DNA of 64,000 nt from Comamonas odontotermitis (GTDB lineage Bacteria > Pseudomonadota > Gammaproteobacteria > Burkholderiales > Burkholderiaceae_C): contig NZ_JACHKZ010000008.1 in NCBI RefSeq assembly GCF_014207855.1, positions 62,001 to 126,000 on the forward strand, in the 5' to 3' direction. A model generated the notes under the pieces. The model was given only the letters and a program-made list of their open reading frames with translations. It had not been told where the DNA came from and did no database searches. The stretch's first letter is position 1; the number at the start of each line of letters is the position of its first letter. Both the position numbers and the translations under genes were made by a program. Of this stretch, positions 33,289-37,030 are shown in pieces.

Positions 33289-33407
33289 GAACAGGGCCTG
33301 AAAAACAAAAAGCGCCTGCAGTGCAGACTGCGGCGCAACAAAAGGCTTGCCAACGTTCATGGCACATGGCCAGAGCAGGGCATAACAAGGCGTTCATAAC
33401 CTCCATC

Positions 33408-33568
33408 GTTTCATCGAAAAAATGCGTGGCTACCCGACAAGTCGTTGGCTGGCTAAAACGACCCCGAAGCTGAACAGGCCCCGAGTGTCGCCCCACGATG
33501 AAACAATCACTGTTGCGTTGGCACAAGCGCTTTTTGGAGGGAGCGTCTGCGCCTTCTGCAGCGGCGAT
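33408..33568 (-). ncRNA. Candidate Fur-controlled small RNA, paralogous to the hemP 3' region
   Basis: Read on the minus strand from about 33568 (start estimated from the -10 box) to the six Ts at 33417-33422. Bases 33417-33504 are clearly related to 36691-36782 just behind hemP: an 18-nt block GTTTCATCGTGGGGCGAC is identical, followed by a shared GGTCGT-TTT-GCCAGCCA region, a stem capped by CTTG, and GTAGCCA-GCA-TTTTTT. The CTTG-capped stem differs in sequence but keeps pairing (CGA/TCG here, GG/CC in the other copy). A 9-bp inverted repeat, GTTTCATCG (33408-33416) and CGATGAAAC (33496-33504), flanks the element. No open reading frame fits. The terminator stem is not a canonical one. Confidence 0.6.
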
Positions 33569-33574
33569 GAACGA

Positions 33575-33605
33575 ATCATAACATTGAATGAGAATAATTA
33601 TCAAT
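33575..33605 (-). promoter_or_regulatory. Sigma-70 promoter overlapped by a Fur box
   Basis: On the minus strand TTGATA (33599-33604), an 18-bp spacer and TATGAT (33575-33580) form a good promoter. AATGAGAATAATTATCAAT (33587-33605) covers the -35 box and spacer. It contains TGAGAAT-A-ATTATCA, a 7-1-7 Fur site with one mismatch between half-sites. The promoter points into the small RNA at 33408-33568. Confidence 0.7.
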
Positions 33606-33765
33606 AAGAATGTGGATAAATTCTTTGCCAGACCCTCATTTTGTGTAAGTGTTTGTTTTTGTGTTGGTTCCTGCCGCAAATTGCGCATAAGCAAGGGTGC
33701 GCGCGTCGCAAAATTTTGGTAACTTATGGCTATCAATACAACAAACAGGATTGCGGAGGATTGCA

Positions 33766-34095
33766 ATGATGAACAACAGCTACAGTTTCAGATCGAGCGT
33801 GCTGGCGCTCCTGGCGCTGACGGCTTCTGCATGGTCTCAGGCTGCGTGCTACACCGTCTACAACGCCAAGAACGAAGTGGTGTACCGCAGTGTGGAGCCG
33901 CCCGTGGATATGTCCAAGCAACTGCACCAGTCGCAAAGCCAGCTGCCTGCTGGCAGCCAGGTCGTGTTTTCGCCCAACCAGAGCATTTGCGTAACGGAAG
34001 TCAATGAGTTGCAAGCAGGCAAGGGTTTCAAGTCCACCAACGCCAATATGGTCACCGATCAGTTGAATCTGGGCAGCATGATTACTGCCCAGTGA
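33766..34095 (+). CDS. Small exported protein of unknown function
   Basis: 109 residues. GGAGGA lies 5 bp before the ATG at 33766, and a signal peptide (SSVLALLALTASAWSQA) precedes a mature part starting ACYTVYNAKNEVVYRS. Two cysteines (CYTVY and SICVTE) could pair. The mature domain (SVEPPVDMSKQLHQS and PAGSQVVFSPNQ) is not assigned to a family here. It is divergent from the Fur-box small RNA with 160 bp between, so iron control is possible but not shown. A terminator follows. Confidence 0.7.
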   Translation: MMNNSYSFRSSVLALLALTASAWSQAACYTVYNAKNEVVYRSVEPPVDMSKQLHQSQSQLPAGSQVVFSPNQSICVTEVNELQAGKGFKSTNANMVTDQLNLGSMITAQ

Positions 34096-36690: not shown

Positions 36691-36782
36691 AAAAAAGTGC
36701 CTGGCTACGTGGCAAGCCTCTGGCTGGCAAATACGACCTTTGGAGGGTGTGTTGGCCTCCTAGAGTCGCCCCACGATGAAAC
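36691..36782 (-). ncRNA. Conserved RNA element in the hemP 3' region, paralogue of the 33.4-kb element
   Basis: Begins one base after the hemP stop codon and ends in six Ts (the As at 36691-36696). It shares the 18-nt block GTTTCATCGTGGGGCGAC, GGTCGTATTTGCCAGCCA, a CTTG-capped stem (GG/CC) and GTAGCCAGGCACTTTTTT with the stand-alone copy at 33408-33568. It would be transcribed together with hemP under its Fur box and could be released as a 3'-derived small RNA. It has no coding potential of note. Confidence 0.6.
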
Positions 36783-36980
36783 CTATTTCGTCAGGATCAA
36801 CTTGCCCAGCTTGGTAGCCTGCAGGCGGTAGATGGCCCCGTTGTGCAGAATGGAAACCGCCTTGGCGCCCTGCAGCAGCTCGCTGCTCTCCAGGGTACCT
36901 GCAGGGCACACGGGCTGGGGCGTGCTGGCAGTGCTGAGCGGGGCAGTCTTTGGTAGGGCAAGAGGTGCGCTGGTTTGCAT
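36783..36980 (-). CDS. hemP: Hemin uptake protein HemP
   Basis: 65 residues. The C-terminal half SSELLQGAKAVSILHNGAIY followed by RLQATKLGKLILTK is the HemP family signature. HemP proteins are small, Fur-regulated factors needed for heme uptake; in Burkholderia and Bradyrhizobium they act on expression of heme receptor genes. The N-terminal 25 residues are low-complexity (Pro, Ala, Thr). The ATG at 36980 is used; a TTG seven codons upstream is possible. A Fur-box-like sequence lies 32 bp upstream, and the stop codon is followed directly by the conserved RNA element. No heme receptor gene is adjacent. Confidence 0.88.
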   Translation of the reverse strand: MQTSAPLALPKTAPLSTASTPQPVCPAGTLESSELLQGAKAVSILHNGAIYRLQATKLGKLILTK

Positions 36981-37011: not shown

Positions 37012-37030
37012 AATGATAACGATTCTTATT
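37012..37030 (-). promoter_or_regulatory. Fur box upstream of hemP
   Basis: AATGATAACGATTCTTATT, containing TGATAAC-G-ATTCTTA, fits the 7-1-7 Fur pattern with a few mismatches. It shares its right half ATTCTTATT with the sites in front of the siderophore receptor and bfd genes. Confidence 0.65.

Follow-up and report, generated by a model that had tools for sequence, protein, structure and literature searches.

A putative free-standing, Fur-controlled small RNA gene of Comamonas with a BrrF-like paralogue behind hemP

The window is a 64,000-nt stretch of Comamonas odontotermitis (contig NZ_JACHKZ010000008.1, positions 62,001 to 126,000). It contains a putative small RNA (sRNA) gene, here called the free copy, and a related sequence directly behind hemP; the features of both are listed in Table 1. 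The minus-strand promoter named in the original prediction (TTGATA, 18 bp, TATGAT) is present, is accompanied by an upstream TG and is the sole promoter-like site on either strand in 33300-33800 (0.4 expected from shuffles). The near-perfect 7-1-7 Fur site that had been read over this promoter was also recovered, with 13 of the 14 specified positions fitting. Fur-type sites with up to three mismatches are found at six places in the window (0.27 expected), four of them outside the free-sRNA and hemP promoters. Transcription would start at A33568, 7 nt after the -10 box, and the RNA would end in the T-run at 33422-33417. No strong stem-loop was found before the T-run of the free copy.

Table 1. 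Features of the free copy and of the hemP-linked copy in the window
Feature	Position	Strand	Remarks
Fur-type 7-1-7 operator	33589..33603	-	overlaps -35 box and spacer; 1 mismatch to TGATAATNATTATCA
Sigma-70-type promoter	33575..33604	-	TTGATA 33604-33599, 18-nt spacer, TATGAT 33580-33575
Predicted sRNA gene, ~152 nt	33417..33568	-	from putative TSS A33568 to T-run
5' leader of free copy	33505..33568	-	separate hairpin in fold; absent from hemP-linked copy
Seed block GTTTCATCGTGGGGCGAC	33487..33504	-	conserved
Hairpin 1, closing helix GCGAC/GTCGT	33458..33491	-	
3' module: GCCAGCCA, stem CGA/TCG with CTTG cap, TAGCCACGC, T6	33417..33453	-	
CGATGAAAC directly behind T-run	33408..33416	-	complementary to seed GTTTCATCG; recurs in free genus copies
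Second, hemP-linked copy (BrrF-like)	36691..36782	-	from hemP stop codon to own T-run
hemP, small hemin uptake protein	36783..36980	-	PF10636, E 2.5e-15; putative start ATG 36980
Fur-like site upstream of hemP	37014..37028	-	3 mismatches

The 18-mer GTTTCATCGTGGGGCGAC occurs exactly at 33487-33504 and at 36765-36782, both on the minus strand (0.08 expected), and no third place in the window was found with up to three mismatches allowed. The second copy starts immediately after the stop codon of the ORF identified as hemP by Pfam. The distal 88 nt of the free RNA align with the hemP 3' sequence from 36783 (about 90 nt, to the T-run), and a BLAST search of the genome with its own element matched two places, the free and the hemP-linked copy. 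The identical 18-mer, the alignment and the BLAST result bear out the proposed relationship between the distal part of the free copy and the hemP 3' sequence. The CTTG-capped stem, proposed to change sequence while keeping its pairing, indeed reads CGA/TCG in the free copy and GG/CC behind hemP, and it is part of a covarying helix.

The family was searched in a genus set of 53 genomes, presumably GTDB Comamonas with Delftia. With the free copy as query, a DNA search matched 45 of the 53, and seven relatives align over nearly full length, promoter included, with 77-95% identity. Covariance model R1 gave 115 matches in 47 of the 53 genomes, with one to four matches per matching genome. At family level, R1 finds the element in 116 of 397 genomes, spread over 37 of 126 genera; in an order-wide draw it matches 9 of 399 genomes, every one in the window's own family. 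A named scan with R1 returned at least 120 matching stretches, and the genera among the matches listed include Comamonas, Delftia, Acidovorax, Paracidovorax, Variovorax, Hydrogenophaga, Polaromonas, Rhodoferax, Ramlibacter and Curvibacter. No match to the core was obtained by BLAST in a plasmid collection. The expected conservation outside the strain was therefore found. The arrangement of one free and one hemP-linked copy also stands, but not as a one-off pair: it belongs to a family with one to four model matches per sRNA-bearing genus genome.

Genomic context was assigned to the 78 genus copies from the DNA search, out of the 115 model matches (the remainder are mostly, not all, weaker). 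Sixty-six of the 78 are free and 12 lie behind hemP. In 64 of the 66 free copies a Fur-type site fits the consensus at 10 or more of its 12 positions (about 0.9% of shuffles), and 65 of the 66 have a TAnnnT box no more than 24 nt behind the Fur site. In the wider family, 73 of at least 103 model matches, on other contigs, were classified: among the matches listed, 60 follow hemP and 13 do not. In Variovorax and Acidovorax most of the listed copies belong to the hemP-linked form. Eleven of these 13 listed copies show a Fur-like site (9-11 of 12 positions) at 70-102 nt, with a score of 9/12 arising in 4.5% of shuffles; no convincing Fur-like site was seen at one Ramlibacter and one Rhodoferax contig among these non-hemP copies. 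Judged from its wider spread, the hemP-linked state is presumably older than the free state. In a tree of 113 elements the free and hemP labels change 9 times, compared with 37 times in shuffles. The tree forces at least two label switches (starred branches), but its alignment columns are too few, so the origin of the free copies is not datable from it. Tandem copies behind hemP are found in Vandammella, Corticibacter and Lampropedia (loci L161, L169 and L183, among the matches listed). In one genus, tandem sRNA copies lie within about 200 nt of each other (G129, G221, G291, G348, G397 and G437), those of G129 behind hemP.

Conservation of the RNA was assessed in two alignments. A1 was made by MAFFT from 58 copies (57 distinct sequences) and was not fitted to a model; A2 contains 103 covariance-model matches (91 distinct) fitted to the model, so it leans towards structure. 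The core CATCGTGGGGC (33490-33500) is invariant in all 58 sequences of A1, and the same holds for the two AGCC motifs and for the GC that precedes the T-run. RNAalifold found no covariation in A1 and just five invariant pairs, in our opinion because of misaligned stems and a single outlying row. The helices were therefore named by hand and then counted in A1 and A2. In A2, 97.9% of cells pair, and sliding the partners drops pairing to 27-66%. Doubly changed cells number 20 in A2 (2.7 in shuffles) and 15 in A1 (2.4 in shuffles); for each alignment, 0 of 500 shuffles were as high. The closing helix of hairpin 1 is paired in 99.8% of A2 cells and shows a compensatory replacement of G-C by A-U in L043 and L071 of A1. 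In helix 2, the CTTG-capped stem, all three pairs are changed on both sides in A2. When the window's free copy was folded, the UCGUG core paired with a CCACG close to the 3' end (C8 through G12 have an unpaired probability of at most 0.22), and only GUUUCAU stayed largely free. With the core paired in this predicted fold, target pairing by the free copy may need a chaperone or may begin at the free UUUCAU.

The sequence behind the T-run is often complementary to the seed in free copies. A seed complement of at least 7 nt is found there in 19 of 66 free genus copies versus 20 of 4549 control windows, and one of 9 nt in 7 of 66 versus 0 of 4549. All eight members of the window copy's group carry at least 7 nt, and in the L065 group seed and complement have changed together. 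None of the 12 hemP-linked genus copies has a complement of at least 7 nt behind its T-run. Among 11 free copies from other genera, Paracidovorax anthurii alone reaches 7 nt and the others have 3 to 5. As a guess, read-through RNA would mask its own seed by means of the CGATGAAAC-type complement.

Related motifs were seen behind hemP across the order. At least two GCCAGC motifs within 200 nt are present in 33 of 49 order-wide hemP 3' regions versus 27 of 638 control windows, and hemP is often followed by a short stem with an (A)GCCAGCC motif on either side (L442, L453, L460, L462, L486 and L489). No Rfam match was found in hemP 3' regions L442, L453, L460, L462, L474, L475, L484 and L489. The motif pair may be an undescribed RNA element and may be the source of the sRNA 3' module.

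A genome scan for the seed complement (CCCCACGATGAA, up to one mismatch), the approach suggested for finding targets, was unproductive: it gave 33 matches, and of 30 examined few lie on likely gene starts. An exact match lies before what we take to be a glyoxalase/ArsI-like gene, and matches to the pattern were also seen at a presumed LysR gene beside leuC and just before a start that we consider nuoD-like. The start region of the LysR gene (L359 and orthologues, LysR-type by a name we assume) also gives a good predicted duplex with the seed, with a mean energy of -17.0 in 20 sRNA-bearing genomes versus -8.8 and -10.5 in two sRNA-less genomes. Since the scan did not yield a workable set of targets, the analysis turned to the start regions of orthologues in 25 of the 53 genus genomes, 21 sRNA-bearing and 4 sRNA-less. 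Four genes (sodB, sdhC, fumA and acnA) had been taken in advance from the list of BrrF targets, and leuC entered through the aconitase family search. The sodB gene is missing from the count in G006, leuC is uncounted in G006, G016 and G025, and acnA is uncounted in the four sRNA-less genomes. Sequence and length suggest that sodB is the iron-type superoxide dismutase (SOD) and that the second type is the manganese one.

An open search for 5-mers shared by the five start regions ranked CACGA first, with a summed fraction of 4.41 of 5 versus 2.60 for the next. CACGA is the exact complement of the invariant core UCGUG, and it lies on the start codon (CACGATG) or on the Shine-Dalgarno sequence (CCACGAGG). 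It is present in 89 of 103 target genes of sRNA-bearing genomes (sdhC 20/21, sodB 19/20, leuC 19/20, fumA 17/21, acnA 14/21) and in 1 of 14 in sRNA-less genomes (sdhC 1/4, sodB 0/4, fumA 0/4, leuC 0/2); these totals include five acnA and three fumA starts added later and were 87/98 and 1/11 before. Because the four sRNA-less genomes are few and related, with stretches identical between G016 and G037, the contrast is supportive and not independent proof; one or two losses may account for it. Among other genes, orthologues included and called by a simple gene caller, CACGA was found in 15 of 635 (14 of 494 by distinct N-termini). It is also found in 10 of 20 sdhD genes, in 3 of 20 lysR genes neighbouring leuC and in 4 of 15 second-type SOD genes, which are presumably of the Mn type and not expected to be repressed. 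The motif lies at -4 in all 29 placed fumA and acnA genes; in 46 of 58 sodB, sdhC and leuC genes it falls in the range -12 to -19. The predicted target site thus kept its position around the start codon but not its full length: CCCCACGATGAAAC as a whole is not conserved, and the conserved part is CACGA, which lies on the Shine-Dalgarno sequence as well.

In the window's genome, CACGA is found in sodB, fumA, leuC and sdhC, and acnA has ACGATGAAG instead (duplex -12.3). The acnA gene is without CACGA in 7 of the 21 sRNA-bearing genomes. Other complementarity often replaces the missing motif, as in acnA of G006 and G043 (CTCGATGAAAC) and in fumA of G051 and G052 (CCCCACCGATG). Duplex energies were calculated for the seed against positions -32 to +12 of the start regions. 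In sRNA-bearing genomes the means are -18.3 for fumA (21 genes), -17.9 for acnA (10), -16.8 for sodB (11), -16.0 for leuC (20) and -12.7 for sdhC (21), with -10.6 for the second-type SOD (15). In sRNA-less genomes the values are -10.7 for fumA (one gene), -11.4 to -13.3 for sodB (four), -12.0 and -14.0 for leuC (two) and -9.4 to -13.3 for sdhC (four). Energies as good as the median for fumA, acnA, leuC or sodB were reached by 10 to 20 genes in a null set of 300, which came from a simple gene caller and still includes some start regions overlapping the sRNA itself. The sdhC energy is no better than ordinary, with 83 of the 300 as low. Duplex energies alone are not decisive, and the CACGA motif is the stronger argument for the predicted targeting.

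sRNAs derived from 3'UTRs by mRNA processing are a known class, and BrrF is a member. The hemP-linked copy resembles this class, while the RNA of the free copy would be that module made as a primary transcript. RyhB of enterobacteria, PrrF1/2 of Pseudomonas and NrrF of Neisseria are Fur-repressed and repress sodB, sdh, acn and fum (in part after PMC7377471). By sequence, the free copy is like them in having a promoter covered by a Fur-type site; it is unlike them in lacking an Rfam match, in its different seed and in having its paralogue within the mRNA of a heme gene. Search listings restricted to open-licence PMC papers brought up no account of a BrrF-type RNA as a free-standing gene or from Comamonadaceae.

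BrrF (ncS63, BTH_s39, RF02692) of Burkholderia is the closest known system and the published counterpart of the hemP-linked form, a correspondence absent from the original prediction. It appears to arise by cleavage at the 3' end of hemP mRNA and ends in a U-run without a preceding stem-loop (PMC7377471, PMC5688073, PMC4035088). PMC7377471 describes it as always located behind hemP without its own Fur box, and as probably Fur-controlled through hemP. According to the same paper, B. cenocepacia BrrF is induced by iron depletion; acnA, fumA and sodB fall on iron depletion in the wild type and not in the BrrF deletion mutant; and only 17% of the predicted interactions lie on the start codon or Shine-Dalgarno sequence (PMC7377471). 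More than 50-fold induction by iron depletion is given as a BrrF trait. That the free element is simply another BrrF gene within this family is unlikely. The hemP-linked copies do occupy BrrF's place, and inspection of L470-L473 against A1 revealed common features: GUGGGG near the 5' end, a hairpin, AGCCAGC-type motifs and a U-run end without a clear stem-loop. Fur-type control is alike, as are the overlapping targets sodB, fumA, acnA and sdhC, which here are predicted. However, no Rfam family matched 33380-33620 at E up to 5 (RF02692, RyhB, PrrF and NrrF included), and RF02692 did not match the hemP-linked copy at E up to 10, where just an implausible lncRNA hit of 13 bits appeared. RF02692 matches three Burkholderia-type loci, L470-L472, at 119-152 bits, and has no gathering-level match in L417, L421, L011, L043 or L065. 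The three matching loci are from genomes of another family and have a BrrF sequence (GTATTGTGGGGACC...) behind hemP; a fourth such genome has a variant (TTTTGTGGGGACC...). Conversely, when R1 was run with filters off against the L470 BrrF, the score was 4.1 bits (E 5.2); because R1 does not reach Burkholderia BrrF, homology with BrrF rests on place and common motifs. The window's free copy also differs from BrrF in standing alone with its own Fur-type promoter, often with several copies per genome, and in its seed GUUUCAUCGUGGGG, whose predicted CACGA sites lie at the start codon or at the Shine-Dalgarno sequence.

It is improbable that CACGA is read in start regions by a protein, or reflects a translation-initiation preference, with an incidental resemblance to the sRNA. 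The motif is short, the pairing in the cell is a prediction, the core of the window's copy is largely paired in the fold, and CACGA also occurs in the second-type SOD and sdhD starts counted above. On the other hand, it is rare in other genes and nearly absent in sRNA-less genomes, and replacement complementarity is often present where it is missing. The several copies per genome and the complementary ends in part of the free copies would suit a mobile-element relic or dispersed repeat bounded by inverted ends, GTTTCATCG ... CGATGAAAC, but this reading is very improbable: the copies are diverged, the free ones have their own Fur-type promoter and conserved helices, the match of the seven relatives runs through the promoter, and the inverted end is found in none of the 12 hemP-linked copies. 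Least probable is a small-protein gene or a cis-acting 5' leader. Open frames of 61 aa (+) and 184 aa (-) do overlap the free copy, yet both are broken by internal stops in 7/7 near-full-length relatives, the antisense ATG is lost in 6/7, a Pfam search of the + frame gave no match, and the next gene, recD-like, is convergent to the sRNA. The claim that about 150 bp behind the promoter are non-coding agrees with these broken frames.

The free element is very probably the gene for a trans-acting, iron-sparing sRNA that is repressed by Fur-iron and made under iron starvation. Its most likely description, judged from sequence, is a free-standing, often multi-copy, BrrF/RyhB-like iron-sparing sRNA. 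The Fur-type promoter, the conserved covarying RNA, the lack of a conserved frame, the family distribution and the target-site enrichment are sequence-based observations. Transcription and the 3' end, like binding of Fur, target pairing and repression in the cell and any need for Hfq, are inferred from sequence. When iron is scarce, repression by Fur-iron would be lifted and a primary sRNA transcript would be made from the free locus. Its 5' block GUUUCAUCGUGGGG would pair with the CACGA start regions of sodB, fumA, acnA, leuC and sdhC mRNAs. As the CACGA sites lie on the start codon or Shine-Dalgarno sequence, the duplex would cover these elements and repression would act at translation initiation, probably with lower mRNA stability as well. 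Output of iron, heme and Fe-S enzymes would be lowered and iron spared. The hemP mRNA would carry the same RNA module in its 3'UTR, as in the case of BrrF in Burkholderia; with the module in both places, there would be two Fur-controlled sources of one seed.

A wider scenario is put forward tentatively, as somewhat less probable than not. An sRNA born in the hemP 3'UTR would have been freed at least twice in Comamonadaceae by acquiring its own Fur promoter and amplified to up to four copies, one seed being supplied by mRNA processing and by primary transcripts. Free genus genes would tend to carry their own target site behind the terminator, silencing read-through RNA, and the 3' AGCCAGC hairpin would derive from an order-wide hemP 3'UTR element without Rfam match in the loci tested. 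The locus provides a concrete iron-sparing RNA candidate for Comamonas, Delftia, Acidovorax, Variovorax, Hydrogenophaga and others, for which a seed, a target motif and five targets can be named. The same RNA module is visible here in two forms, within the tail of an mRNA and as a gene of its own that is often multi-copy.

A second G-rich stretch, GGTGGG[GA], is found in the leader of 34 of the 66 free copies (e.g., L011, L021 and L044; 0.8% in shuffles) and was not seen in that of the window's free copy. It could possibly serve as a second seed. In eight genomes (G018, G022, G029, G040, G044, G045, G048 and G049) a second-type SOD gene is found about 3-12 kb away from one of the sRNA copies. 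This SOD is presumably of the manganese type and would be an iron-free substitute for sodB.
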